Source: Diphasiastrum complanatum (taxonomy: Eukaryota > Streptophyta > Lycopodiopsida > Lycopodiales > Lycopodiaceae). From it: a stretch of DNA of 64,000 bases. Under the pieces are notes generated by a model. That model saw nothing but the letters and a program-made list of their open reading frames with translations, searched no databases and was not told the DNA's origin. Where the stretch lies: the NCBI GenBank assembly GCA_029204225.1, contig CM055109.1:4302299-4366298 (forward strand), written 5' to 3'. The position numbers were made by a program, and so were the translations under genes. Every line of letters starts with the position of its first letter. The first letter of the stretch is position 1. Positions 21,501-50,972 of this stretch are shown here, piece after piece.

Positions 21501-24500
21501 TATCCTTTACTCTACGATGAGTGAGTTGTTGAGAGAATGAGAGATCTTGGTGAGAAAGCTTCTATGAGGCAGAGAGCTCTTGATCATAAAGCTATTGAGA
21601 GATCAAGAGACCTAGATGAGACGACAGAGCAAAGCTAGATAAAAGTTGAGCGACGGAGATTAGCAGATGCACAGTCGGGAGCATGCACAGTGCCAAGAGT
21701 GGTGGGTGGCTACCATACATGCTCAAGTTCCTAAGTCTGGGGCAGATGCACAGTCGGGAGCATGCACAGTGCCAAGAGTGGTGGGTGGCTACCATACATG
21801 CTCAACTTCCTAAGTCTGGGGCACAGACAGATGGTACAAGCTATTATAGATGAGCAGCGATTCTTCATAAATTTTAAGGTTTTTGTTTATTTGCATTTTA
21901 CTATATTGAGGTTTTGAGTTTCCCAGATATTGTCCACATATCTAACGATCGTAAGCTTACAAGTTTACTATTAACAATCGTACATTGATTCTGAGTAGTT
22001 CACCATGCAATCCTATGTGATTAACTCTACACAATACCATTCATGTGGGACTCATCACTATATTTTTAACTTTAGACTTCAAAGCTAAATTAGTGAATTT
22101 AAATATGCAAGACAGATCCTAGAGATCAACCTTCTGGATCCAGATTCCTAAGACCCACAAGACTTCAAGAACCATTGGTCTACCGTCTTCCTGGATGTCT
22201 CACTTCATGGATGATTCACCACATCAAACCCAATTCTAGCATCTCCAGCTCACAGCCAAGGTCATTCCATTGGTGCACAGAAAATTTTACCCTTTTCAGT
22301 TTGTGTATGGGGCATAATTAGTAGAGCGCAATTTGTTCTTGTTCCCGAGGGACTAAGCCCAAGAAGTTTCAAATTCCTTGCCTCGAGCTTTGTGGGGCCC
22401 GTTGCCACACACTAGCTCCCACTCTTATTCATTCTTGTGGAAAGATTACAGTATCTCTTGGAATCTGGGATAAATGACTAGAATATCTAATCCGTAAGTA
22501 GAATATAGAGTATATGTGTTCAAGAATAGTTTTAGATTGAATAGAGGCTGACTTGCAATAAGGGTGATGAGACCGTTCTCAGAAGTGGTGAGACAGCTTA
22601 ATCTTATATCGGGTTGTGTCATTTCAAAAAAGCCACTGAGTGCTATGCTCAATTTCTAATAAGAAATCAAGCATAAGTTTTCAAGGCAACAAGAACATGT
22701 CTTGATTTCTTGATGGAATGGAAATTTACATTATGTTACCTTTGCTCCTAACAAAAGCAATCGTCCTTGTGATGCAGATTGGGCCACAAATATCCTGTAA
22801 TAAGTTTGTTGCTCAAGTCCAAATCATAAGTGCTTAGAACATAAGATAAGTCTTTCAAAACCAGAACAAACTATTAATTAGCTCTAGAAAAATTTCAAAA
22901 ACCCTAAATCCAAAATCAACTTCGATCCCACAAGAACATGTATCATGTCCACAAATGAAGAATGACAAACCAAGAAAACGATCTGAGATGTTTTGACACA
23001 AACTATTAAGATAAGAATAAGGTATCTTCAAATTTCAAAGAATGCAATTGTCCCTCTATGTCTCTATTCAATCTTAGACTTATAGCTCTCCGAACCAACG
23101 TCTATCCATGTCAATATATGGTAAGAAGCGAGGAAGCAAATGACTTAGAAGATCCACAATCTGAAAATAAAGTATATAGTAGCATAAAAAGAGCAGTCAC
23201 TATTCAGACGACAGTTCATTTGCTTCAGCTCTCAAGTTCACTGTAGGTGACTTATCCACAATAATTCCAAGAATCTGCCACTAGAGACAAATGAATGGAC
23301 TTTCGCAAAGGTTTTGACTCTGTTCCCAGACATCTCCTTTTTCAGAGGTTAGCTTCACTTGGCTTTACAGAGGAGACTATTGCTGCGATCATTACTTTAT
23401 ATGAGCGGGTTTTGGCATGTTTCAGAGATGGTAATGGCTGGTCCCCTCTGATACATAGTACCATTGGAGTGAAGCAGGGCTGTGCTTTATCGCCTACTCT
23501 ATTTGCACTATATATTGATGATCTCAAGCGGGTTATTCGCGAGGAAGGTGGAGAGGACTGCCCTTTAGCGGGCATTATTATACCCATTCTCCTATATGAT
23601 GTGGTTCGTCTCTGTAAATGTAGGACGCGGCGAATGTAAATGGAAATGGACGGCGGATGTGGCGAATGTAATGAGCCGAGTCCATAACTCTCCCTGGCAC
23701 AAAAAAAATAGACCCAACTGCCGAAAAGAAACTGGATCAAATAGCAGCAAGCCCTGGTGCATCAACAACAACATATGATGTAGAGGAATCAACAAGTGCA
23801 GCAAGAGCACGAGCCTGACCCGCAAGTGATGGTGTATGATAAAAGACATCAATAGGCTCCCATGTGGCCTCCTCAATAGGATGACCATCCCACTGGACCA
23901 AAAACTGAATTTGCCGGCGGCGTCGACTATGGTATAGACGAACCTGTAATATAGCAGCATGTAAAAATGGAAATAACTCTAGAGCAGTAGGAAACTCAAT
24001 ATCTCAAGGAGCGTCATCCTCAATAGCAGCACGTAATAAACTGACATGGAATACATCACAGGCACGTGCGGAAGCAGGAAGCTTTAAGCGATATGTAACT
24101 GGACTAAGAACCTCCAAAATGCGATAAGGCCCATAATAACGTGCAAGCTTCTCAGTAGAAGTATGGCCCTAGACAAAATGATGACGTGCAAACCGTAGGC
24201 GTAGATAAACCATATCTCCAAGCTGAAACTCAACATGGCGGCGGTGACGATCAACTGAGGTCTGATAACGTTGTTGAACATGCTGTAAATGAGAACTGGC
24301 TCGGGTAAAAGATGCAAGTGTGACAGGTGTATCCTCAGGAGGGAGAGGAATGCAAGGTAAAAGAGGTGCATAGCCATGAGATAAGAAAAATGGTGAGACA
24401 CCTGTGCTAGTACTAACAGAGAAAAATGGCGTAAATAATCCTCAAGGATCCTGTTAAGGACCTCAGACTGCCCATCAGAAGTAGAATGATCAAGCAGCAA

Positions 24501-27500
24501 CCAGGAATGCCAAGGTATCCGTAATGCCCAAGATAGTAGAGGATCTGCCCAAAAGATAGGGACATCATACCAAGGTATCCAAAAAGCCCGAGAAGGTAGA
24601 ACTGCATCAGCAACAGGAAGCCAATAAGGAAACTGGAAAAGAGATGGACACTCATCGCGAATAGCCGCATCATACACGTAACCATCAACCATATGTGCAA
24701 ACTCAATGATATAGGTGCCACAAGAAAAGATAGCAGCATCGGAAGATTAGCACCAAGGAGTAGGAACATAAGCAGAATGACAGGCACGCTGTAATAGCAT
24801 GGAAAAGCAAGCGATATGCCAGGAAACATGGATCATAAAGAGATCATTCTGACAAAGGATAGCTAAAATGGAGAAACGTGCACCAGCATGGTCAAAAGCC
24901 CAAGGTATCCATAAGGCCCATGAATGAGAAGTAGCAATGGCACACGGTACCTTCAAGGCCCCTATCACGACAAGAGCAGCATGCCAAAAGCTCCAGAAGG
25001 TCCAATAAATCAATGCATCATCTAAAAAAGCATGATGCATAAAAACAATAGCAACAAATCTAAAAACAATAGAGGCCTCAACTGAAAAACTGTAGCCGAA
25101 AAACTCATCCAGAAAGACCTCATATGGACATACCAATCCATCAGAGGATACACCAAAAACAGATGGAGAATCGGATGACCCATCGGAACTGGCCGCAAGT
25201 GTAATCCCAAAGTACACACCAGGCGCACAAGTGAGGAATAGAAGAAATGCACTAGAACGCGGAACAGGATCCCCAACATCAGTAGCAAGCAGCGGATCAA
25301 TATCCACGTGTAGCTGGGGATGAGTATCAAAGCACATATGACCAATACTAAAGTATATGGCGGCAACATCCCCACAAACTATCCAAGAGAGGAGAAGGAA
25401 CTCTCTCAAGGTACTCTGATGGTCTCGGAAAACCAGAACAAAGTGGCAACTCAGATCAGAGACCAAGCGATATGGAGCAACCTGAAATGACGGGGAATCT
25501 AAAGATCACCTGGACAAACAGTAGCTGGAAAGGAGGCAATAACCCAAGCCATCAGGATATGCCAAGCCTGACAATGAGCAACAATCCAAGAAACAGATAG
25601 AGAGCCACATGCATAATCATAGAGATATCCGCACCATAGGCGATCAGTAATATGGAAAAACCAGCACCAATCAACAGGTCCAAATGGAAACCAAGCTATA
25701 CGTAATAACCAGGAATGCCATATATCCACAGCATCGGCATGGACTGCAGCAAATCTATATGTAGAAACACAAGGAGACTGAAGGATGCCCGTATACTCAT
25801 CTAGAAAGTTCCCAGCATATAAATACCCTAGATAAGTAATAGTGACCATCTGGCAAATATCCTCGGATGGAAAATGTGTAACGGTAAGGGCCAAAGGCGC
25901 ATGAATCATGTAAGGAACCGTAGAAATATCATGAGGCGGTTCACAAACCTCAAGCAGAGATCCATGGAGTAAAGCGAAAGAAGATACAACCTGATCACCA
26001 ATAGCGAGGGAACCATCAAACGTGGACCCGTGAAGCACCCCATAGAAATCAGCAGGAACATCGGCCATAACGGACTCAAGAGATGTAGATATAGAGACCA
26101 ATGGAGAAGATACTGCACCAACCACCGAACCAGGAGGGCTATCTGAGGTATGCGCAAAAGCAATAGTAGAAATACCACCAAGGTATACGGCCTGAGGAAG
26201 AGGACCCACGGATGGTGAAAGTGAAGCAGTAACTATGTACTCTGAATGGAAAGAAGAGCTGCATCCTGAGCCTTTGGCAGGCTACGCATAAACTGCTTCC
26301 CGGTAACCAACTGATAGTCACCCTGGGAATCAATACCAGCAAGTAAATGATGCTGACCAGCACGAGTAAAGGAAAGTGTCTGCTAAGAGAGATCCACAGC
26401 AACAGTACCAAGTGAAGAGAACCAGTCGTATGCCATATGGAGATCTACTGGAGTAGCCAAAGCATCTGAAACCGTAGACCCATGAATAATATCGAAATAA
26501 GGAGCATAGGCGACAACATCTATAGCATGGCGCTCAGAAACACGAGTAGCATCAAAGTACTCAACAACAATATCAAAGCATGGAACAGCATCATCAATAG
26601 TACTAATGATAATAAAAGATAGCGTATTTGGGTTTTATCGTGTTAGTTGAAGCCATAAAACCGAATCTAAGAAGAGTTGTCCTCCTTCTGTGGCCTGTAC
26701 CTACATACTTGATGGTATTGAGCAGCTCTCTTGGATTGTTTGGGTTTTATTGCAAGGTGTGAAGGGTTGTTCACACATGGCTGCACCTTTGACCAATCTG
26801 CTATAGAATAATAAGTGGACGAAAGTTCAGCAATGAAGTTTCGACGCTGTAAAACAAGTTGTGGCTGACTTTGTCACATTAAAGATGGTAGACCCTCAAA
26901 AACCAAGTGTCATAGTAACGGATGCAAGTGATGTCATCGTTGGGACAATTCTGATGCAAGAGGGTAGGCCAGTGGCCTTTGTGAGCAAGAAACTCAACCC
27001 TGCTCAGAAGAGTTATATGCCATTGTCCATGCTTTGAAAGTATGGAGGCATTATTTGTGTGGTGCGGGTTTGTATACACCGACCATGACATTATTATGTA
27101 TTTCTGCAATTAGCCAGGTGGGCTAGACTGATGCAGGAATTTCACATGGAAATTCGGTACAGGAAAGGTATCGAAAATCGTGTGCCTGATGCATTATCTT
27201 GTATATTGTATCAGATGTTTTTTGTGGTCATAGAGAATGACCTAATTGCTGAGATCAGATAGATTCAGCAAGAGGATCCTCATTGTTTATTGTAAGGAGG
27301 TTGTGAGAGAGGTAAATCTTGGCCAAGTAGAGTCTCAGAAGGAGAGCTCTGATCTCTTTGCTCACACTTGCCTGAAGTATACCATCGTAGATGGTATAGT
27401 TAAAGGAAATGGAAAACTTCCCATTCCAGTTAGTAACAGGCTGTGTAGGGAGATTTTGCATTCATGTCATGATAGTACTAGTGCTAGTCATCTTAATATG

Positions 27501-28587: not shown

Positions 28588-30723
28588 CTGAAATGACTAC
28601 ATGCAAAACCAAACTTTAGTGGAAAAGGCAAAAAGTTTGTTCAAACATAATTGGACAATTATGACATTTTGCATGTTATGGAGATTTTGAATTATATTGC
28701 AACAGGCTGAGCACTCTTCAATGTTGCATGACTAAAACCGCATATTTTCTACTCATTAACTAATCCAAGATAAAGCCAAATACATCGTATATAAATGTTC
28801 TTTGCATCTGATGTTTGTGAAAACTTTTCTCAAATGGTCATCAAGCTACATGAAAATGAAAACTTCAATAGTTTTGTGAGTCCTAATAGTCATATCACAA
28901 TGAGACTATAAATCCAATCATAATCTTGCCCAACTATACATGTATTCTAAAAAATTGCTTATAAGTTCCAACTTTGTGCAAAATCATGTTCAAATGGCAC
29001 TTTGACATGCACATGCAAAGTACATGTGAGAACAAGACTTGGAACTTAGAGAGACTAACGCCAAACAAAGTCTCGACATCAAGCTTATGAAACAAAAAAT
29101 TAAGTGCAAACAAGCCCAACCAACTTTTAGCTGTTAAAATTTGAAGATAGGACACTTGGCCGATTCAAACCCCGGCTCCCTGCACAAATAGATACTAGCT
29201 CCTTTTCCTTTTCTCTGTCGGTTGAATGATTTTGAGCAGAGCTTTGTACTGGGATGACTAGGAGTAGTAGTTTACAAAAAATTGTAAGAGAATTTCATCA
29301 CTTAGTGTTGCAAGGTCCCTTTGAGAGGCACGTTTATTTTCATAGATGATTACCTTACATTTACAAGGAGACACATAGGACTTTTAGGAGCTAAAGACGG
29401 CATATGATGGGCAATCTTAGGATGGCTGAGCACAAATCTTCATTCTAAAGCTCCCCTGTTAAGGGCTATAAAGGGCCAGCCTTACCTTTGTTTGTGTTTT
29501 GGTCCACAACTTGCTTTTAGCAATCGTTGCTAACTTAATCAGGATTTTCCCTAATTGACTTAGAATGGTTAGCCAAAACTTCAAAGTAAAGTTTTACATC
29601 CCTCATAATCTATTTGAAGGGCCAAATTTGATTATCCTTCCTTTAAGAATTTTTTTTTATACGTTGAGTGTATTAAGAATAAGTTGCTAATTTAAGCAGT
29701 TTGGTAAAGTCTACTACCCATTGTTAGAGTTCCTTTGGATGTTACATTATTTTCCCAAGAATTGTACTTTTGTAAAGCATAATTATTTGTGATTTAGTGA
29801 TAAGATATTACAAAATTTGGACCTTAGCAACATAGGCCATTGCTACAGAATATTGATTAAAAGTACAATAGGCAGTTGCTAGATTTGTCTTCCTAGACTA
29901 GTTGTTTGGGGAATTTTGCCACAATGAAGTTTATAGTTAGTATGCCAAATTGTACTATGAAAGCGGATTTTACTCTATGTAAAACAAAGTACGGTGCACT
30001 TTTCTTGCCTAAATCCATACGCAACATCAAATGTAATGAATTGCTCAAAGGTAATTGGTTTTGCTTCTGAAGGAGCCATAGTAAGTGTTGTGATCATAAA
30101 GTGAAGTACCAAAACAAGAGTTCCCAAACTTTCAGAGCCAAAAGCTTCCATTAATATGGATAGGATCACAGCATGTTATAGATAGAAAGAGAAGTGAAGC
30201 TCGAAAGAATCCATATTAGTTGAATCCGAAAGAAAAGCATGCATGTCCCATTGATGCTCATACAGAGAAATCACGTATAGTAGGTTTTGCACCCACTCAT
30301 CCCTGATCTACCACAACCATTGTGAAAAATCACTAGCAAAAGGAGAACAAGGCATGATGACTCTTCAAGTACTAATAGAGTTCTAAGTATATATACTTGG
30401 AACAAAATTCAACAAATACTTGAGGAAACAACTCTTTTAAGTTTTCGCCACCCCAACAATGCCAAATGTACACACAAACACACTAATATGTGGAAGATCA
30501 ACTTCAAAACAAAAGATCAAAAGAGGTGGACTGAAATATTGGATAGCAAATAAATATCCAAATGTCAGACATGAATGAGCGCTAGTTGATTTAAAATGTT
30601 GTTGTCCACATATGTTGTGAAAAAAAAATCAGCAAAGAAAAAGTGAAAGAAAAGTGGGCTCAAACAATGCCCAAACTGACCATTGCTAGAAAATCTTTGA
30701 AACGTTGAAAAACTTTCGATTTA
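28588..30723. other. AT-rich stretch right of the rhomboid exons, nothing recognised
   Basis: Part of the 24-kb intron if the exon at 52,650-52,949 belongs to the rhomboid. A box-B-like GGTTTGAATCG on the minus strand near 29,170 has no clear box A. No supported ORF. Confidence 0.5.
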
Positions 30724-31174
30724 AGTTATGAACGTAGCCACGGCTGATCTAGATTTAGTCTATGAAAGCATCACATAAGCAAGACTTAACCCTAGAAAGC
30801 AGGAGAGAGAAAGCTTAAAGAGACTAAAGAAGGAGATCATATCATAAGCCAAGTAACAAATGACACAAAATCCCTACTTATAGCCAAGAGGAAGCCCTAA
30901 AAGGAAGCTTCCAGTGGCTAGGGCCAAACTGAGAGGGAAAATAGTGCGCCGTCCAAGAAGGCCCCCACTCTCAGTAATATGACCAAATAACCAATATAGT
31001 GAATCATAGGGCCCAAGGCCAATAATATGGTCTAAATGTCAATAATAGGGCCCAAGGCCAACCATATAGTCTAAATGTCAAATAATGAATAAAAAAGGGC
31101 CCAAAGCCTGCCTATGCATAAAGTAAAGTAAATGTAAATGAACATGGCGAATGTAATGAGCCGAGTCCATAACT
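30724..31174 (-). repeat. Gypsy-6 3' LTR, complete
   Basis: On the minus strand it starts AGTTATGGACTCGG after the polypurine tract and ends CGTTCATAACT; the ends form a short inverted repeat AGTTATG/CATAACT. Length 451 bp. Bases 30,724-31,117 match 36,252-36,645 with one substitution near 30,872. Confidence 0.9.
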
Positions 31175-32535
31175 CTCCCCGACACAAAAATAAGACCCAA
31201 CTGCCATGAAGGACTGGATCAAGTAACAGCAAGCCCTGGAGGATCAACTGGAACAGCATCTGGTGTAGTAACAACTGGAGCAACAGCTGATGTGCGGCAA
31301 GAGCACGAGCCTGATCCGCAAGTGACGGTGTATGATAAAAGACATCAATAGGCTCCCATGTGGCCTCCTCAACAGGACGACCATCCCACTGGACTAGGAA
31401 CTGAATCTGCCGGCGGCGTCGACTATGATGCAAACGCACCTGAAGGATAGCAGCAGGTAATAAAGGAAAGAGATCCGGTGCAGTAGGAAACTCAGCATCA
31501 CGAGGAGCATCATCCTCAATAGCAGTACGTAATAAACTGACATGGAATATATCACAGGCACGTGTGGAAGCAGGAAGCTGAAGACAATATGTAACTGGAC
31601 TAAGAACCTCCAATATACAATAAGGCCCATAATAACGTGGTGCAAGCTTCTCAGTAGAAGCATGGCCCTGAATAAAATGATGACGTGCAAACCGTAGGCA
31701 TAGATATACCATATCACCAACATGAAACTCAACATGACGTCGATGACGATCAACTGAAGCCTGATAACGCTGCTGGACCTGCTGCAAATGGGAACTAGCC
31801 TGGAGAATAAGCTCGCGAGCACCTGATAGAAATGAAGACAGTGTCACAGGTGTATCCTCGGGAGGAAGAGGAATACCAGGTAAAAGAGGTGCATAACCAT
31901 GAGATAATAAAAATGGTGCAACGCCGGTGCTGGTACTAACAGAGCTGTTATAGCTATACTCTGTCAAACATAAGTGCTGATCCCAATCCTTCCCTGAAAG
32001 AGTAACAAAATGGCGCAAATAATCCTCAAGGATCCTGTTAAGGACCTCAGACTCCCCATCAGAAGTAGAATGATAAGCAGACCCCATAAAAAGCTGTACA
32101 TCCAATATACGCATAAGCTCTGTCCAGAACAATGATGTAAACTTACTATCCCGATCAGAAAGGATAGTACGAGGAAACCCATAGAGGCGAAATATCTCTG
32201 AAAGGAACAAGCGTGCACACTACTCTGCTGTGATAGTACTGCAGACGGGTATGAAATGTGCCTGTTTCGAGAACCTGTCAACTACCACCATACATGAATC
32301 GTGACCACGACGGGTGCGGGGAAGGCCAATGATGAAGTCCATAGAAATATCAGTCCACTAGCGGTGAGGAATAGGCCAACTCTGAAGCAAACCAGCGGAC
32401 TTAGCACGAGAGTACTTATTACGTAAGCAGAAAGGACAGGTACGAATAAGTACAACAAGCTCTTTCCTAAGGGATGGCCAATAGAAATGATCCTTAAGAC
32501 GAGCATAAGACTTCTGAAAACCAAAATGACCCCCA
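31071..32535 (-). pseudogene. Gypsy-6 integrase and chromodomain-like tail
   Basis: After the RNase H deletion: GHFGFQKSYARLKDHFYW and TCPFCLRNKYS (zinc region; its first His is lost with the deletion), [18 protein letters not shown] (core start), [32 protein letters not shown] (catalytic Glu), ERELILQASSHL-like GPY region, and at the end [18 protein letters not shown] then [12 protein letters not shown], a chromodomain-like fold. TAG at 32,360-32,358 and 32,222-32,220 interrupt it. The frame is otherwise open to 31,071, running into the LTR. Confidence 0.93.
31175..31183 (-). other. Gypsy-6 polypurine tract
   Basis: GTCGGGGAG on the minus strand directly before the 3' LTR. Confidence 0.65.
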
Positions 32536-34538
32536 ACAAAAGCACTAGACTTCTTCAAAAGGGCATGAAGAGGGGCAGCCACAGTGGCAAAGTGAGGAAC
32601 AGGACGACGAAGGTGAGTAGCGAGACCAAGAAACATACGAACATGGTGGACATCTATGGGAACAGGCCAATCAGCAATTGCCCGAACCTTATGAGGGTCC
32701 AAACGAATACGACCATCACAAATGAGAAATCCTAAAAACTCAATCTCAACAACAGCAAAGGAACACTTAGAAAGTTTAGCAAACAACTGGTGATGAACAA
32801 GCAATTGAAAAACAGATGAAAGATGTAACACATGCTCATCAAGAGTCTTACTAAAAACAAGAATATCATCAAAATAAACTAAAACACAACGACCAAGGAG
32901 AGGACGCATGATGTTATTCATCACATTCTAGAACGTAGGTGGACCATTAGTAACACCAAAAGGAAGAACACGAAACTCATACAAACCAAGATGGGTACGA
33001 AACGCAGTCTTGTGTTCGTCCGAAGGATGCATCCTAATCTGGTGATAGCCGGAACGTAAGTCTATCTTAGAGAAAAGATGAGAGGTGCCTAACTGGTCAA
33101 AGAAATCATCCATGTGAGGAATAGGATACTGGTTACGGATGGTCAACTTATTGAGGGCACGATAATCAATGCAGAGGCGTTTGGAACCATCTTTCTTACT
33201 GACAAGGAGAACAGGGGCACCAAAAGGACTGTGACTAGGAACAATAAGGCCCTGATCTAGTAAAGCAGTAATCTGAAGCTCAACCTCATCACGCTCAGAC
33301 TTAGACATACGGTAAGGAGGTCGGGAGGGAGGAGCAGAACCAGGACGCAAATCAATATGGTGGTTCACATCACGTAATGGTGGTAGCGTCGTAGGTTCTG
33401 AAAAGACAAATGCATACTGATGTAATAAGTCAGAGATCACCTGAGGAACAGCTGCTGGAGGAGAGGTAGTCACTGGAGAATCTGCTGCAGCACGCTGAAC
33501 ACATAATAAAGCTGCACAATGAGCCTTAGGTAGGCTGCGGATAAACTGCTTCCCGCTGATCAGCTGGAAATCTGCCTGAGAATCAATACCAGCAAGTGAG
33601 TGGGTCACTGCATCATGAACAAATGTCAATGTATGCTGAGCCAGGTCCAAAGTCACCGCTCCCAATGAAGCAAACCAATCAGCACCAAGGATAAGGTCAT
33701 AGCGCTCCAGAGGAATGATATAAAGATCTGCCTGTCCAGAAAAATCACCAATGCGGTAGGATAATCCCTGAAACATCTGAGAACTAGGAAATGAGTGAGA
33801 ACTGGCAACCTCGACTGTGAGAGGCTGTGGAGCAAGAATAGGTGAAGCGCGTATCCGGCTGAGAACATAACTGCTGATAAAGGAATGAGTGCTGCCGGTA
33901 TCAACTAAAGCAATATACTCACGACCAGTAATGCGCACACGTAGCCGAATGGAGCGAGGACCGGGGCACCCTGTCCTGGTAGCATAAGCAAGCTGAGCAT
34001 GGCAAGTAGCAGGAAGTAAATCAGTAGAAGGCTCAGGAGATAGATCAGGCTCATCAGATATATGAATGTAGATATCGGACTCATCTGGGGTAGTGCCCTC
34101 ATGGTAGAAAACAGCAGTAGAAGTAGGCAGGGGCTGGCGGCAATCACGGGCAATGTGGTCAGGACTCTTACAACGAAAGCAAAGACGCTTCTGCTGAATG
34201 TCAGCGAACTCTGCAGACGTGTAACGTCGGACAAAAGCAGGACGAGGAGGCGGAGGGCGAGGAGCGGGAGAAGTAAGAGAAGAGGTCGGGACGACAGTGG
34301 ATGGGGCAGATGGGGCCGGAGATGGTAGAGGTGAAAGAGATGGACGGGGTCGGGAAAAGCGAAAGGGAGCAGGATCAGGGTACTTATGCTGTAAAGTACT
34401 AGCAAGGGACATGGCCTCAACAAGTGTGGGTGGACGGAAAGAAGAGACATCGTATCGTAGAGCACCACGAAGTCCAGCAATGTAGCGAGAAATAAGCTCG
34501 GAGGGCTGAAGATCTGTAAAGAGGTAGGAAAGGTCCAT
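32536..34538 (-). pseudogene. Gypsy-6 zinc knuckle, protease and reverse transcriptase
   Basis: In one frame: Pro-rich gag end, zinc knuckle [14 protein letters not shown], protease [27 protein letters not shown] start [46 protein letters not shown], and the active site VLVYFDDILVFS, intact. RNase H should follow AAPLHALLKKSSAFV but instead the integrase zinc region begins (about 32,536). TAG at 32,930-32,928 (in place of the Gln of TFQNVMN) is the only stop here. Confidence 0.95.
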
Positions 34539-35234
34539 AAACTGATCTGTATAGGAAGCAAGATCACCAGTCTGAGTAAGACTACGGAATATATCACGCT
34601 AGCGGCTCAGCCACTGAGGGTCAATCATAGCATGACGAAGATCACGACGAAAGGTAGGCCATAACTGGAGACCGACCCGATCGGGGTCAAGTCGGTAGAC
34701 CCGCCACCAAGTGGCAGCACGTCCATCTAAATGTAAGGCGGCTAACTGGATCTTCTGAGGATCAGTCTTAGGGTAAATCTGAAAATAAGTATCAAGCTTT
34801 GCAAACCAATTCTCTAACAAGTTCCCGTCAAAGGAACCAGAATAGGTGGCAAGTTGTACCCGATCACGAAAATCTCGAGCAAAATGTGGCTCAGGAGCTA
34901 GATGTCCTGGAAAATGTGACTCAGGAGCTGTAGGACGTGGAAAACCGGGTGGTGGGTTAGGTGGAAAATGAGGCCCACCGCCAAAGGAAGTAGACGAGGA
35001 TGGAAGTCCAAATGGAGACCCAAATGATGAATGAACAGGGGCTTTGCCAGGTCCATGTGGCTGTAAGGAATCAATCTCTGACTGCATAGTGGCAAAGCCG
35101 GTCTGTAGAGTGGTAAAACCGGTCATCATTTGGTCGAAACGACTACTGAGGAGAGTAAGAGAGTCACGCATATCAGCAAACTGTTCATCTATAGGTCCGG
35201 AATGACTCGCAGGTGTAGTGGGTGAGCTAGCCAT
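34539..35234 (-). pseudogene. Gypsy-6 gag
   Basis: ATG at 35,234 opens MASSPTTPASHSGPIDEQF; a coiled-coil-like stretch, a Pro/Gly-rich region (PPNPPPGFPRPTAPESHFPG) and the capsid core ATYSGSFDGNLLENWFAKLD with ATWWRVYRLD follow. TAG at 34,601-34,599 breaks it 211 codons in, after which the same frame goes on to 34,538 and pol. Gag assembles the virus-like particle; the stop would cut the capsid domain. Confidence 0.93.
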
Positions 35235-36239
35235 GAGGAAGAAAAAGTAAGCGAGAAAAGAAATGTGCTAAACAATTGGACGAACTGAAGGAGAGGACAT
35301 AAGTCGTCACAACAGGCACGCCAATGAAAAGACACAATAGAACTCGTGATGTAAGATGAACGGAAAGGACAACTAAGTAAGAAATACCTCGTAACCGCAA
35401 CCAGAAGTGAGCTGAAAAATAGCGGCGATATGTCGAGGTACCGGGCAACCTCCAAAAAAGATGCTAAGGGCCCGACAACGTGGAGTAAACGGTGGGTAAA
35501 AGTATGGGAAACAATAATGGACTATGGGGCTGGAAAGGGAGCAGCCAAGGAAAGGAAGTGATAACAAAAAGGAGGTATGGGCAGCGAGGAAACAAGGCTG
35601 AAAAATCAGAGATCGCCCTTCAAGGGTAAAAAAAAGTTTGCGATAAAGACGGGGAGCAATCTCGATGCGCGATGAAGTTGGGTGGGAGTGGCTTTCTAAG
35701 CATCTGGGCGTGTTTGTATTGTCTGGGTTAGGGTTGCGAACACAGACAGCAGTGTGGGAGGGTGACCTGAAATTGAGGCGGATGTAGGGCGCCAGCTATG
35801 GTGGAGTGTGGGCGTCCAAGAGAGGTAGTAAACGGCAAAAAATATTGGATCAAAAAAATGGGTTGGTAGGGCGCTAGGAGTGGCTGATGGAAGGTGGCGA
35901 ATAGGGGCAGCAAAAAGCGAAAATTTTCAGCAAAGGAAGGAGCAGTAGGGCGCTGGTCAGCAAGCATGAGGGCGCCCAATAGGGCAGCAAATAGGAGGCA
36001 GTAGGGCGCCCAAAATAGGGGAGGAAAAAGGCTGAAAATGCAGTAGTAGGCAGCCAGCAAGAGGGCGCTAGAAATGGGCAGCAAGTGGGCGCCTGTCGTC
36101 CTCCGATTTGTCGTGAAAATCTGCAAGACAAGTTTCGAGAAATGCTAAAGATCCGGCTGAAAAATGGTGAAGATCCAAGCTGAAGATGGGCGCCCTCCTG
36201 TGAGAGAAAAATCTGCTCAATGGAGATGCTCAGGAAAGT
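35235..36239 (-). other. Gypsy-6 5' leader
   Basis: About 1 kb between the primer site and the gag ATG without coding sequence; related stretches occur at 51,291-51,520 (opposite strand) and in Gypsy-10. Confidence 0.7.
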
Positions 36240-36251
36240 GCTCTGATACCA
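36240..36251 (-). other. Gypsy-6 primer-binding site
   Basis: TGGTATCAGAGC on the minus strand, directly after the LTR end CATAACT. Complementary to initiator tRNA-Met. Confidence 0.95.
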
Positions 36252-36645
36252 AGTTATGAACGTAGCCACGGCTGATCTAGATTTAGTCTATGAAAGCATC
36301 ACATAAGCAAGACTTAACCCTAGAAAGCAGGAGAGAGAAAGCTTAAAGAGACTAAAGAAGGAGATCATATCATAAGCCAAGTAACAAATGACACAGAATC
36401 CCTACTTATAGCCAAGAGGAAGCCCTAAAAGGAAGCTTCCAGTGGCTAGGGCCAAACTGAGAGGGAAAATAGTGCGCCGTCCAAGAAGGCCCCCACTCTC
36501 AGTAATATGACCAAATAACCAATATAGTGAATCATAGGGCCCAAGGCCAATAATATGGTCTAAATGTCAATAATAGGGCCCAAGGCCAACCATATAGTCT
36601 AAATGTCAAATAATGAATAAAAAAGGGCCCAAAGCCTGCCTATGC
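36252..36645 (-). repeat. Gypsy-6 5' LTR, truncated
   Basis: 394 bp, identical to the 3' LTR except for one base. The outer ~57 bases (from AGTTATGG to the ATGCATAGG region) are missing; Copia-7 begins at 36,646. Confidence 0.92.
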
Positions 36646-45247: not shown

Positions 45248-46545
45248 TGACCGACTAGGCCGATATAAAATATCAAATTGAAAGGACTGTAAAAACTACA
45301 ACCAACGATACTAATGGTCACCAAGGTTCCGCTGTGAAAAAAGATAACGTAGAGATTGATGATCAGTAGCAATGTCAAAAGAAACAACATGACGAAGAGT
45401 ATTAAAAGCTATTTGACAATCAGAAGTCCATAAAAAAGAATGGGATTTCTTCGACAAAGCATGAAGAGGAGCGGCCACAATGGCAAAATGTGGAGCAAGA
45501 CAATGAAGGTGAGTGGCTAAACCAAGAAACATATGGACATGATGAACATCAATAGGCACAGGCCAATCTTGAATAACCTAGACCTTATGAGGGTCAAGTC
45601 GAATACGACCCTCAAAAATAAGAAAACCAAAAAACTCAATCTCAAGAACAACAAAAGAGCACTTAGACAGCTGTTGATTAGACAACCTGATGAGTGACAA
45701 ATAACTGGAAGATAGAAGAAAGATGGGAAACATGCTAGGAAAGAGATGAACTAAAAATGAGAATGTCATCAACATAACTAAAATACAACGACCAAGAAGG
45801 GGATGCATAACATTATTCATGACATTTTGAAATGTGGGTGGTGACACCAAAAGGAAGCATCCTAAACTGATGGTATTCAGTATGGAGGTCAACTTTGGAA
45901 AAGATCTTGGACCGAGCTGATCAAAGAGGTCATCCATATGAGGAATGGGATATTGGTTTCGGGTTGTCAACTTGTTCAAGGCTTGGTAGTCAATGCAAAG
46001 TTGTTTGGTCCAATCTTTATCAACAAGGAGTACAGGGGCACCAAAAGGACTATGTCTAAGACCAATAAAACCATGACGTGAAAGTGCAGAAATTTGGAGC
46101 TGGACCTCATCACGCTCGACTCTAGACATCCAATAAGGAGGATGGAAAGGAGGAGTGGAACCTGGAAGATGAGGACCAAGCCACCCAGCCCAAGTAGCAT
46201 AAGCAAGCTGAGCATGTCATGTAGCAGGGAGGATGTCATCGGTAGGAGCATGATGCGCAGGAACTTGGTCAAGCTCATCAATGATTTGGGTATAAATCAG
46301 ACTCATTAGTAGCAACGCCCTCGTGATAGTAAACAACAGGAGTAGTGGAAGGCGTCTAGCACAATCATGAGCAATGTGGTCTGGGCTCTTACATTGGAAA
46401 CAAAGACGCTTATACTGAATCTCAATGAGCTCTGTAGCAGTATAACGACAAGCATAAGAAGGTCGAGGAACATAAGGCCAAAATGAAGGAGAAGGTGAAG
46501 CAAAAGTCAAAGTCGAAGGAGGAGCAGAAACAGAAGAAGCAGGAG
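45248..46545 (-). pseudogene. Gypsy-8, upstream piece: gag end, RT and RNase H end
   Basis: Minus strand from 46,545: zinc knuckle [14 protein letters not shown], then TCHAQLAYA running straight into PPYWMSRVERDEVQLQI (RT), so the protease is deleted. RT continues with KQLCIDYQALNKLT, IPHMDDLFDQLG and PTFQNVMNNVMHPLLG with frameshifts around the active site; later DVHHVHMFLGLATH, then AFNTLRHVV joined to ATDHQSLRYLFSQRNLGDH, so the RNase H core is deleted too. The right end abuts Gypsy-10 LTR at 46,545/46,546 and the left end is the Copia-9 insertion site. Confidence 0.9.
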
Positions 46546-46926
46546 TAAGCAAGACTTAAGCTATGAAAGCAGAAGACTTAACCCTAGAAAGCAGGAAAGA
46601 GAGAGATTAAGGAGACTAAAGAGAGAGATCAATATCATCAGCTGAATAACAAATGACACAGTTTCCCTACTTATAGCCAAGAGGAAGCCCTAAAAGGAAG
46701 CTTCCGGTGGCTAGGGCCCAACTGAGAGGGATAATAGTGCGCCCTCCAAGAAGGCCCCCACTCTCCAGTAATATGTCCAAATGGCCTAATAATGAATAAT
46801 AAGGCCAAAGGCCAACCATATACTCTAAGTGTCACTAATGAATAAAATCGGCCCAAGGCCTGCTTATGCATAAAGTAAAGTAAATGTAAATGGACGCGAC
46901 GAATGTAATGAGCCAAGTCCATAACT
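46546..46926 (-). repeat. Gypsy-10 3' LTR, truncated
   Basis: Matches 50,580-50,972 with a handful of differences; lacks the terminal ~50 bases that should follow the TTAAGTCTTGCTTA block. Gypsy-8 gag starts at once. Confidence 0.85.
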
Positions 46927-46935
46927 CTCCCCAAC
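46927..46935 (-). other. Gypsy-10 polypurine tract
   Basis: GTTGGGGAG on the minus strand, as in Gypsy-6 (GTCGGGGAG). Confidence 0.6.
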
Positions 46936-46971
46936 ACAAAAAAAAGACCCAACTGCCGAAAAGAAACTGGA

Positions 46972-47592
46972 TCAAACAGCAGCAAGCCCTGGTGCATCAA
47001 CAACTAGAGTAGCATCTGATGTAGAGGAATCAACAAGTGCAGCAAGAGCACGATCCTGATCCGCAAGTGATGGCGTATGATAAAAGACATCAATAGGCTC
47101 CCATGTGACCTCCTCAATAGGACAACCATCCCAATGGATCGAAAACTGAATCTGTCGGCAGCGTCGACTATGGTGAAGGCGAACCTGGTGCATGGCAGCT
47201 GGTAAGAAAGGGAACAGCTCAAGATCAACATCATGGCGACGAAGGAAACATCTCAACCGCGTCATCAGAAACCAAGCAATACCGAACAACCAGGAATGCC
47301 AAGGAACCAGAAGAAGATCAAGCAGCAACCAGGAGTTGCAAGGTATCCGTAATGCCCAAGCTAGTAGAGGATCAGCCCAAAAGATAGGGACATCATACCA
47401 AGGTATCCAAAAAGCCCGAGAAGGTAAAACTGCATCAGCAACAGGAAGCCAATAAGGAAACTGGAAAAGAGATGGACACTCATCGCAAATAGCTGCATGA
47501 TACACGTAACCATCAACCATATGTGCAAGGTGCCCCAAGAAAAGATAGCAGCATCGGAAGACTAGCACCAAGGAGATCATCCTGACAAACAA
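46972..47592 (-). CDS. Gypsy-10 ORF joining novel sequence to the chromodomain
   Basis: A 206-codon frame. The first two thirds ([52 protein letters not shown]) are the novel sequence shared with Gypsy-4; the end (RRCRQIQFSIHWDGCPIEEV then [15 protein letters not shown]) is the chromodomain-like tail. The join is in frame near 47,235. In the intact relative this tail helps target integration to chromatin; here no integrase is attached. Confidence 0.6.
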   Translation of the reverse strand: MFVRMISLVLVFRCCYLFLGHLAHMVDGYVYHAAICDECPSLFQFPYWLPVADAVLPSRAFWIPWYDVPIFWADPLLAWALRIPCNSWLLLDLLLVPWHSWLFGIAWFLMTRLRCFLRRHDVDLELFPFLPAAMHQVRLHHSRRCRQIQFSIHWDGCPIEEVTWEPIDVFYHTPSLADQDRALAALVDSSTSDATLVVDAPGLAAV

Positions 47593-47698
47593 TAGCTAAA
47601 ATGGAGAAATATGCACCAACATGGTCAAAAGCCCCAAGGTATCCATAAGGCCCATGAATGAGAAGTAGCAATGGCATACGGTACCCTCAAGGCCCATA

Positions 47699-48142
47699 TC
47701 ACGAGAAGAGCAGCATGCCAAAGCTCCAGAAGGTCCAAGAAATCAATGCATCATCTAAAAAGACATGATGCATGAAAATAGTAGCAACAAATCTAGAAAT
47801 AGTAGAGGCCCCAACTGACAAACTGTAGCCGAAAAACTCATCCAAAAAGGCCTCATATGGACATACCAATTCATCATTGGATACACCAAAAACGGATAGA
47901 GAATCGAATGACCCATCGGAACTGGCCGCAAGTGTAATCCCAAAGTACACACCAGGCGCACAAGTGAGGAATAGAAGAAATGCACTGGAACGAGGAACAG
48001 GATCCGCAACATCAGTAGCAAGCATTAGAGCAATATCCACGTGTAGCTGGGAATGAGTATCAAAGCACATATGAGCAACACTGACGTATATGGCGGCAAC
48101 ATCCCCAAAAACTATCCAAGAGAGGAGAAGGAATTCTCTCAA
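47699..48142 (-). CDS. Gypsy-10 novel ORF, conserved block
   Basis: 147 codons with [38 protein letters not shown] and FMHHVFLDDALISWTFWSF, nearly the same as 24,880-25,420 of Gypsy-4. Hydrophobic and aromatic; unknown function. It may be continuous with the neighbouring frames through small indels. Confidence 0.5.
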   Translation of the reverse strand: MREFLLLSWIVFGDVAAIYVSVAHMCFDTHSQLHVDIALMLATDVADPVPRSSAFLLFLTCAPGVYFGITLAASSDGSFDSLSVFGVSNDELVCPYEAFLDEFFGYSLSVGASTISRFVATIFMHHVFLDDALISWTFWSFGMLLFS

Positions 48143-48386
48143 GGTACCCTGATGGTCTCGGAGAGGACATAAGTCGTCACAACAGGTACTCCAAAAGTAT
48201 CACACAAACTCCACAAAACATTGTACAGTAACTATAAGCAACTACAAAGCATCAACTATAAGCAACTAATGTAGATGCATAAAGAAAACCAAGCGAGAAG
48301 AAAACTCGCACAAGGTACTCTGATAGCCCAGGATTGCCAAAGAAATATGTCGTAGTGAAGGGCCCCAACAAGTGAAATATCCAAGG

Positions 48387-49663
48387 CTAGCCGAATAGCC
48401 CAAGAAGACCATAGGAAAACTCAATATGCAGGACCCCAACAACTGAGATATCCAAAGCTAGTCGAATAGCCCAAGAATACCATCGGAAAAGCACATCTCG
48501 GCAACCACTCTGGAACAACATCAAACAAAGACCAAGCATGTGCAGCAACCAGGAATGCCAAGGAACCTGAAGTATAAAGAGATCATGCAGCAACCATGAA
48601 TGCCAAGGAAACTTTGGAAGATCACCCTGACAAAGAATAGCTGGAACAGACAACTGTACATCAACCCAAGGTATGTGCAATGCCCAAGAATGTAGAATGT
48701 CGTCATGCCAAGGGATCCATAGTGCCCATGAGTGTAAAGCAACAATACTGTAAGGTATCCTCATGGACCATGAATATACAATGTAATCATGCCAAAGGAC
48801 GCGTAGTAGCCATGAATATAAAACAGCATCTAGATGAGCATGATCCACAAATGTAATAACATCATACTTAGGCATAATAGCAGAAACACCAACTAATAAG
48901 CTTTGGCCTAAATATGCATCTAGAAGATCCGCATATACAATATGAGAAGGAACTATCAACGGAGGGATAGGACACCCAACGTAGGAACCATCATGAAATG
49001 TAGAAGCATGTGACATGTGTAGTGCTACTACTGAATGAGTAGGCAAGTCATCTAAAAGAACAACCATAGACTCATCGTAATAAGCAGCATAGGCTACAAC
49101 ATCTATAGCATGGTACTCAAAAGCAGTGCGATAAGGAACATAGGCTACAATATCTGTAGCATGGCACTCAGGAGCAGCACCAAAGTACTCATCATCAGTA
49201 TCAGCATCAGTATCAAAGCATGTAATAGCATCAGCAGTAGCAAAGGATGCAACATTATCAAAGCAGGCTACAGTAACAAAGCACTCGGGAACTGCACTAA
49301 GGCATGTAGTATCTGTAATATCAGCATCAACCTTTGTAGTATCTGTAAGATCAACTTGTGAAGCATCCGCAATATCAACCTGTGCAACATCAACCTGTAG
49401 ATGTGACTCAAACTCACTATGCGAGACATGAACTAACTCAGGTAACTCAATGACTATCTCAAATAGCTCTATGACTGTCTCAAATGACGCAGGTGACTCA
49501 AATGATTGTGACTCAAGAGCTGGATGACGTGGAAAATGTGGCGCAGGAGCTGACTGACGTGGGAAGCCAGGGGGTGAGTTTGGTGCATAATGAACCCCAC
49601 TGCCAAGCGAAGGAGAAGAGGATAGAATCCAAATGGAGGCCCAAATGAAGGAAAAACAGAAGC
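48387..49663 (-). CDS. Gypsy-10 long ORF: gag Pro-rich segment fused to a novel repeat-rich protein
   Basis: The minus frame is open from just after a TAA (49,665-49,663) to the stop at 48,387, about 425 codons; the first ATG inside is at 49,067. Its start (NSPPGFPRQSAPAPHFPRHP, about 49,590-49,520) is the Pro-rich gag region of Gypsy-6. It then leaves gag and shows Glu/Val-rich IELFEIVIELPEL, repeats of the kind VDIADASQVDLTDTTKVDAD, paired ATDIVAYVPY and [10 protein letters not shown], and finally [21 protein letters not shown] and PWHSWLLHML. No known fold. Local tandem repeats at DNA level explain part of the pattern. Confidence 0.55.
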
Positions 49664-49696
49664 TTTACCAGGACCATGAGGTTGTAAAGAATCAAT

Positions 49697-49834
49697 CTAT
49701 GACTGCTTAGTAGCAAAGCCCGTCATAACGGTATCGAAGCGAAGAACGAGGCCAGAAAGGGTCTCATCCATGCGACGAAACTGATCGGATAAGATTTCTT
49801 GAGAAATCTCACTCGGGGTAGGTGAATGTGCCAT
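49697..49834 (-). pseudogene. Gypsy-10 gag N-terminus
   Basis: MAHSPTPSEISQEILSDQFR then FDTVMTGFATKQS, stop TAG at 49,699-49,697, then IDSLQPHGPGKASVF in the same frame. It parallels FDQMMTGFTTLQT..MQSEIDSLQPHGPGKAPV of Gypsy-6. A frameshift near 49,630 connects it to the long ORF. Confidence 0.85.
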
Positions 49835-50521
49835 AATGATAGTGGAAGGAATAGACGAAAACTTGAGAGAGCGGACTCTTGTCGTCACCCCAAATTAGTC
49901 TATTAAAACCACTATTATCACAACTAAGAAAGGACAGCAATCAGCAAATGAAAAAAGTGAAAATGAAGGCTGTAAAAATGCGTTAGACAGCCAGGAGGAA
50001 AGTGACAAATTGGAGTATCAAACGGAGTCGGAATTTCGTGAAATTTGGTTGAGGATGGGCGATGGACAGCCTGCAAACAAGGTGTGAAACATGGCTGCAA
50101 ACGGAGACAAAAACGGACGAAAGTGACAAGTATGAAGCAACTGGACAGCCTGCAAACAAAAGTGAAAAGAGTGCTAAAAATGGAAGGAGGAACGGACGAA
50201 AGAGATGAGGGAATTGGGCGCTGGAGAGCCTGCAAACAAGCTGGAAATGGGTGATAGAGGGTTGGAACTTGGGCGCCGGAAATAATCTGCCCAAAAAAAA
50301 AAAAAAAAAAAATTCGGCCGCCAAATCTAGCGAAAGTACTTCCGCTAACTATCTGCTAAAGCTCCGCCAAGAAAAATGCTTTGATGGGAGCTGGTCCTCT
50401 AAACTGTGCTGAATGTTGCTGAAGCAAAGAGACGAAAGCCCTCAACAAAGAGAGAAAAATCAGCAAGGAAAATGGGCACCCAATCAGAAAATCAGATTTG
50501 AAATTCAGCAATCAGGAAAGT
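49835..50521 (-). other. Gypsy-10 leader
   Basis: Non-coding leader of about 690 bases, with an A20 run at about 50,294 (T on the element strand) and repeated GGACAGCCTGCAAACAA blocks (50,062; 50,145; 50,223). Confidence 0.7.
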
Positions 50522-50534
50522 GCTTTGATACCAA
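50522..50534 (-). other. Gypsy-10 primer-binding site
   Basis: TTGGTATCAAAGC, one base different from the standard TTGGTATCAGAGC. Confidence 0.85.
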
Positions 50535-50972
50535 GTTAATAGAGCCACAGCTGATCTAGAGCTAAGCTATGAAAGCATCACATAAGCAAGACTTAAGCTA
50601 TGAAAGCAACACATAAGCAAGACTTAACCCTAGAAAGCAGGAAAGAGAGAGATTAAGGAGACTAAAGAGAGAGATCAATATCATCAGCTGAATAACAAAT
50701 GACACAGTTTCCCTACTTATAGCCAAGAGGAAGCCCTAAAAGGAAGCTTCCGGTGGCTAGGGCCCAACTGGGAGGGATAATAGTGCGCCCTCTAAGAAGG
50801 CCCCCACTCTCCAATAATATGTCCAAATGGCCTAATAATGAATAATAAGGCCAAAGGCCAACCATACACTCTAAGTGTCACTAATGAATAAAATCGGCCC
50901 AAGGCCTGCTTATGCATAAAGTAAAGTAAATGTAAATGGACGCGACGAATGTAATGAGCCAAGTCCATAATT
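50535..50972 (-). repeat. Gypsy-10 5' LTR
   Basis: About 438 bp, ending CTCTATTAACT on the minus strand before the primer site; a 26-base block (AAGCATCACATAAGCAAGAC with neighbours) is locally duplicated near 50,570-50,620. Confidence 0.88.

Follow-up and report, generated by a model that had tools for sequence, protein, structure and literature searches.

Gypsy-10 (G10), which lies on the minus strand between 50,972 and 46,546 of a 64,000-nucleotide (nt) stretch of Diphasiastrum complanatum DNA (hereafter the window), is probably one copy of a high-copy set of chromoviruses that lack reverse transcriptase (RT), are mobilised in trans and carry a recombining, decaying open reading frame (ORF) derived from coding sequence. 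G10 is a long terminal repeat (LTR) element whose interior passes from a 5' untranslated region (UTR) through the N-terminus of gag (gagN) and a series of novel segments to an integrase/chromodomain tail. It is compared below with a pol-bearing element of the same window (30,723-36,645, hereafter the relative) and with Gypsy-4 (G4). The parts of G10 are as follows:

50,534-50,972, minus strand: 5' LTR, ending directly at the primer-binding site (PBS); its ends were set from the AGTTA...TAACT termini of other copies
50,520-50,533, minus strand: PBS, TGGTATCAAAGCAC
49,850-50,530, minus strand: 5' UTR
49,510-49,834, minus strand: gagN, corresponding to about residues 1-126 of gag in the relative; an in-frame stop and a one-base shift interrupt it
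48,387-49,664, minus strand: 425-codon open run, made of about 35 gag codons and then a repeat-rich, coding-like novel segment (nov1, nov2)
48,163-48,386, minus strand: nov3, in which the gagN-novel frame (ORF1) of frame-intact copies reaches its shared stop after 72-nt (24-codon) repeats
47,316-48,162, minus strand: nov4, a second novel segment, with 92-95% identity to G4
46,980-47,265, minus strand: integrase C-terminal/chromodomain tail
46,927-46,932, minus strand: polypurine tract (PPT), GGGGAG, immediately 5' of the 3' LTR
46,546-46,926, minus strand: 3' LTR, its outer end truncated and joined to another element

An earlier note on this DNA had described the LTRs, PBS, PPT, gagN and chromodomain tail as kept, and all of them were found, although the 3' LTR is truncated at 46,546. 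Its further statement that protease (PR), RT and the integrase core are absent from the interior agrees with a tblastn comparison in which the capsid (CA), PR, RT and integrase core of the relative gave no match within 47,228-49,507. The tail is 80% identical to that of the relative and scores 18.9 bits against Pfam Chromo (cut-off 25.1), the relative itself scoring 25.4 bits. The LTR pair differs by 4-5 substitutions over 379 aligned bases, and the insertion is therefore fairly recent; the element's own target-site duplication (TSD) has been lost along with the outer end of the 3' LTR.

Copies and architectures of the family

A search of the 1.74-Gb D. complanatum genome with the 425-codon run gave 2578 first-look candidates, the best 40 of which (G10 included) were scored, and all 40 align over 64-100% of the query with 93-100% identity. 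The 39 others were fetched, and they carry the same novel segment, in agreement with the earlier claim that G10 represents a family and not one accident. The corresponding search with the G4 segment gave 1598 first-look candidates, and the best 40 were scored at 95-100% identity. Among the 39 copies, which we assigned to groups ourselves, the novel segment lies directly behind gagN in at least four architectures: 13 copies are of the G10 type, 13 are short gagN-nov1-3 copies with a diverged LTR behind, 3 have the order gagN-nov-PR-G4mid, 8 are B-type copies with CA, nucleocapsid (NC) and PR behind the novel ORF, and 2 are unassigned. Besides G4 itself (L048), 7 further G4mid-nov4-integrase loci were found, and in such loci novel segments replace part of PR and everything from RT to the integrase core. 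In the B-type copies (L039-L046) the start of the capsid is partly missing, and neither RT nor RNase H was found in them. One B-type copy holds an open 562-codon CA-NC-PR frame apart from ORF1 (Retrotrans_gag, 46.7 bits).

LTR pairs were recognised in 23 of the 39 fetched copies as well as in G10, with a divergence of 1.06-6.60% (some values come from partial LTRs), so that further copies with both LTRs, which the earlier note had proposed to look for, do exist. Readable LTRs begin with AGTTAT and end with GTAACT, with the primer site adjoining; the usual LTR ends are TG...CA. The inverted ends AGTTA...TAACT were seen in L015, L016, L017 and others, and in the window at 31,174 and 46,926. TSDs of 5 bp were read by eye in L015, L016, L017 and L022. 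No RT match was found inside the parts read among the 39 copies, the RT matches of L020 lying beyond its 3' LTR. Collectively, LTRs, PBS, PPT and TSDs are present and RT is absent, as in a non-autonomous LTR retrotransposon. With no RT match inside and TSDs in at least four copies, such elements were most likely mobilised in trans, as had been suggested for G10.

Between A and B copies, the synonymous divergence (dS) is 0.65 in gagN but 0.034 in the novel segment, and the corresponding values are 0.34 and 0.039 when open-frame copies only are compared. The simplest reading of these values would be an exchange of the novel segment between lineages, and template switching is thought to exchange segments between lineages, according to an excerpt of a study of wheat elements (PMC11302176). 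On the preferred reading, RT and integrase would be supplied in trans by a helper whose LTR ends, primer site and PPT match, and RT-less RNAs would be packaged and inserted. The novel segment would have arisen behind gag residue ~126, grown through in-frame tandem duplication and spread as template switching, a form of recombination, combined it with various 5' and 3' ends. ORF1 would then be a passenger, coding while growing and decaying after insertion, whose amino acids are not detectably selected.

Coding character of the novel segment

The minus frame that had been reported as open from 49,663 to 48,387 was recovered as a run of 425 codons (49,664-48,390) with its stop codon at 48,387-48,389. 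In 1000 dinucleotide shuffles of the novel region the longest open frame was 346 codons, and in a second 1000, made from the whole interior, it was 260. The run contains no stop, whereas its phase composition predicts 13.6 (a stop-free run then has P 1e-6) and codon-position dinucleotides predict 6.1 (P 2e-3); hence, codon-phase composition explains the openness of the run only in part. The phase signal that a codon-position model learned from the coding pieces of the relative recurs in the novel region. Likewise, 9 of 10 novel segments show 3-periodicity, the observed value being attained in no more than 16 of 500 shuffles for each; so do all 4 known coding segments, but none of the 7 non-coding controls. 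The segment that fails, 48,500-48,163 of G10, shows no periodicity (458 of 500 shuffles reach the observed value), and none was detected in part of the 5' UTR (50,500-49,900). Additionally, 12 of 14 HSW motifs, several of them spaced 42 nt, lie in the best coding phase (set by us from the codon-position model), among the rows of tandem repeats, 7 of the 8 that overlap the run and 5 of the 14 outside it have periods divisible by 3, and three junctions are in frame, namely gag-novel and novel-chromodomain in G10 and novel-integrase in G4. These observations support the view that the novel segment derives from coding sequence and not from random drift, and that it was coding when it grew.

It is very unlikely, and already disfavoured, that the run is merely an open frame that arose by chance in T-rich tandem repeats and never coded. 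The minus strand is indeed T-rich (T 0.39, A 0.18) and repeats are present. Moreover, the fewest differences between the nov1 sequences of G10 and G4 fall at third positions (13/17/5 by codon position; dN/dS ratio, w, 2.68), which is the opposite of protein constraint, and the ORF frame does not have the lowest w in nov1 or in the repeat modules. However, 425 codons were never reached in the shuffles, the periodicity resembles that of gag-pol and is absent in all 7 controls, and the repeats and the three junctions respect the frame.

In the novel frames (48,390-49,664 and 24,750-26,281), lysine and asparagine each make up at most 0.7% of residues and tryptophan ~3.6%, and histidine and aspartate are abundant. 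Lysine and arginine together account for 11 of 425 residues in the G10 run vs 53 of 556 in the gag-pol frame of the relative.

A captured host gene, i.e., a transduplicated plant gene at the origin of the novel segment, is quite unlikely. The coding-like composition of a segment foreign to retroelements would fit such an origin, and captures of this kind are known in plants, as an excerpt of one study states (PMC7264820). Nevertheless, the novel part gave no Pfam match at E below 0.02 and no match below 0.021 in a PDB sequence search; three ORF1 proteins tried against Pfam showed no recognised domain, and one tried against PDB gave no match. A Pfam match at 0.02 and a PDB match at 0.021 were taken as chance. 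In a protein database that includes plants, the 425-aa query gave no match and a 251-aa piece gave one, within candidate length limits and a 40-candidate limit that make a diverged donor undetectable. The sole match is a D. complanatum gene model that joins ~70 novel residues to an integrase C-terminus and is itself another copy of the module. Two IMG/VR scans gave no match. The earlier suggestion of host DNA captured by a retrotransposon thus gained no positive support from these searches.

Broken frames and tests for selection

G10 is not the frame-intact state of the element. Its gag ATG (49,834) is out of frame with the 425 codons, from which an in-frame stop and a one-base shift separate it, and the first Met of the run is codon 200. 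The fusion of gag in frame to the novel ORF, as described in the earlier note, holds for ~35 gag codons, but the gag ATG is cut off. Intact copies start at the gag Met, continue through the novel segment and end at the shared stop further on; their ORF1 has ~460-540 codons. The 71-bp repeat of G10 is the 72-nt unit out of phase. A frame with the shared C-terminal end is present in 26 of the 39 copies, and 35 of the 39 do not keep the frame from the gag Met to the shared stop. An alternative count, with in-phase stops in 28 of the 39, was set aside; it relied on the frame of G10 itself, which is interrupted near the 3' end, and makes the damage look greater than it is.

Selection was not judged from raw NG86 dN/dS alone, because T-rich third positions lower dS; the family's own mutation spectrum served as the neutral expectation. 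The corrected test covers codons up to ~48,530 in 35 of the 40 rows, five near-identical ones (L010, L011, L027, L030 and L044) having been dropped. The ratio of nonsynonymous to synonymous changes (N/S) is 1.07 for singletons, 0.85 for changes found in at least 2 copies and 1.00 for those in at least 6 (11 changes). Nonsense changes stand at 1.06 times expectation among singletons, 1.40 in at least 2 copies, 1.22 in at least 3, and 0.55 in at least 4 (1 observed, 1.8 expected). The gagN control behaves similarly (N/S 1.14, 0.68 and 0.61). Pooled w is 0.81 within A copies, 1.33 within B copies and 1.07 between A and B. In nov4, 15 of the 54 differences between G10 and G4 are at third positions (w 0.90), and values of w up to 0.3 are rejected by binomial tests. 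The novel part of B copies gives a w of 1.52. Genuine CA-NC-PR gives 1.40 within B, so young copies have little power.

At greater depth, known domains show clear constraint (w 0.18-0.32 at dS 0.35-0.56), as illustrated by NC-PR of the relative vs a B copy (w 0.18 at dS 0.47). The novel paralogous modules, by DNA alignment, give a w of 0.84 at dS 0.61, with 41/46/43 differences by codon position, and the 42-nt units give 43/29/38. No constraint on the amino-acid sequence of the novel segment can therefore be detected, and weak older constraint is possible. A dN/dS near 1 with most frames broken, which the earlier note had associated with drifting sequence and no protein, was nearly reached, but the test is a weak one, as genuine gag-protease itself gives 1.40. 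A maintained accessory protein, one of the possibilities that the note had raised, is not supported by N/S of 1.07 and 0.85, by nonsense changes at or above expectation or by the loss of the frame in most copies.

Several points weigh against taking ORF1 as a decaying passenger of trans-mobilised elements. No helper element was identified, an intact helper not having been sought, and the 39 fetched copies, being those most similar to the run of G10, do not sample the family at random. Four of them (two near-identical) have an uninterrupted ORF1 between the gag Met and the shared stop, and one further copy is open to the same extent but lacks the gag Met. N/S falls to 0.65 (p 0.18) for changes in at least 3 copies and to 0.61 (p 0.20) in at least 4; in A copies alone it runs from 1.03 through 0.74 to 0.56 (p 0.10) at 3 or more. 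By protein-based alignment, the novel modules give w of 0.55 and 0.81, third positions account for 8 of 15 and 9 of 14 differences in the diverged 72-nt units of one copy, and a single in-phase stop occurs among 9 rows (8 of them distinct) of the G4b segment, whose divergence is ~3%.

Some of these points bear on a semi-autonomous role, which we regard as doubtful, in which the gagN-novel ORF1 is translated and useful, e.g., as a Gag variant entering shared particles; most copies in the sample would then be dead insertions left by a few intact sources. In line with such a role, gagN-novel is the 5'-proximal ORF in four architectures, its end is shared by two-thirds of the copies and four are open from the gag Met, one B-type copy keeps its CA-NC-PR frame open, the N/S of older shared changes (0.56-0.65) is below 1 without being significant, and wheat partners contribute gag, according to excerpts of two studies (PMC9744471, PMC11302176). 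On the other hand, nonsense changes are not depleted, there is no clear constraint at depth, and AlphaFold gave no confident fold, mean pLDDT being 33 with 3 sequences and 36 with 1. A further reading, which seems rather unlikely, is that ORF1 could be translated as a sequence-free extension, i.e., an in-frame, repeat-grown tail on the Gag N-terminus, poor in lysine and asparagine and rich in tryptophan, histidine and aspartate, that is kept for its length, disorder or charge and acts as a recombining module helping RT-less carriers enter helper particles.

Precedents and relatives

Non-autonomous retrotransposons with unrelated coding segments are already known from wheat, and the overall working proposed here can be likened to that of the wheat groups Cereba/Quinta and Wilma/Sabrina/WHAM (PMC11302176, PMC9744471); this and the following comparisons draw on excerpts of the cited papers. 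Within that scope, the closest precedents are RLG_Quinta and the RLG_Sabrina variants. RLG_Quinta, the partner of RLG_Cereba, is non-autonomous, lacks RT and integrase, and encodes gag and a domain of unknown function (PMC11302176). Like RLG_Quinta, G10 is a gypsy derivative that keeps its LTR ends, PBS and PPT and has no RT match. In contrast to RLG_Quinta, which has an intact gag ORF (PMC11302176), only gagN is present here, fused to a novel frame; G10 also keeps a chromodomain tail, and just 4 of 39 copies have an uninterrupted frame between the gag Met and the shared stop. In RLG_Sabrina_NA2-NA8, unrelated coding segments, some of them lacking homologues, stand in for gag-pro (PMC9744471). 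The present family similarly has several high-copy variants with unrelated coding segments; however, each Sabrina variant has a unique segment (PMC9744471), whereas here one segment with in-frame tandem repeats is common to several architectures. An intact contributed gag, as expected of a semi-autonomous element such as Sabrina_SA, was not found in G10, which has only a broken gagN.

Other plant and animal elements show partial likenesses. The Retand lineage has extra ORFs and tandem repeats inside plant gypsy elements, some of them non-autonomous, but its ORFs are for the most part antisense and sit downstream of pol, ahead of the 3' LTR (PMC11963269), whereas the frame here is sense and directly behind gagN. 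LTR elements of bdelloid rotifers with a captured ORF3 also have an extra ORF common to different lineages; unlike the ORF3 types named there (PMC5408684), which have known homologues, the novel segment here has none that we found. Among the matches listed in open-licence PMC literature, with subscription papers and repeat libraries outside the search, no report of this family was found and none of such elements from clubmosses.

One orphan segment in several RT-less architectures, at ~2,600 first-look candidate places, makes it possible to ask what cargo trans-mobilised elements keep and how such segments move between lineages. Additionally, a codon-phase signal without detectable amino-acid constraint is a warning on calling genes from open frames in repeats.

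Two elements of the window bear directly on G10:

23,633-26,610, minus strand: G4 copy, with a nov1 piece, half of the protease, the novel G4mid and nov4, then integrase, chromodomain and the start of an LTR
30,723-36,645, minus strand: the relative, with gag, NC, PR, RT, integrase H2C2, integrase C-terminus and chromodomain

The 5' side of G4 was not found in the window. Its likeness to G10 is 74% in nov1, 92-95% in nov4 and 88% in the tail. The second copy of much of the novel ORF that had been claimed for G4 consists mainly of 48,162-47,316, which the two have in common at ~92% and which lies outside the 425-codon run; the run itself shares with G4 ~210 nt collinear at 74%, plus diverged repeat modules. 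A stop at 24,747, common to G4 and G10, was considered as the end of the novel ORF and rejected; it belongs to the nov4 arrangement, and ORF1 ends elsewhere.

The relative matches G10 in gag residues 10-126, the integrase/chromodomain tail, the primer-site region and the LTRs. Its PBS (TTGGTATCAGAGCAC, from 36,252) differs by one base from that of G10, which presumably resembles initiator tRNA-Met. The stretch from the PPT to the LTR start is nearly identical in the two elements, and their LTRs are 80-88% identical. A scan of four frames gave no Pfam match to RNase H or the integrase core in the relative, and the element is thus defective. Its own LTRs differ at 1 of 395 bases, and it looks like a young defective copy.

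There are two further observations. A gag-NC and RT fragment of another chromovirus (45,400-46,555 of the window) directly adjoins the truncated 3' LTR of G10. In the Diphasiastrum gene model P0050, methyltransferase domains are combined with a protease resembling that of the relative.

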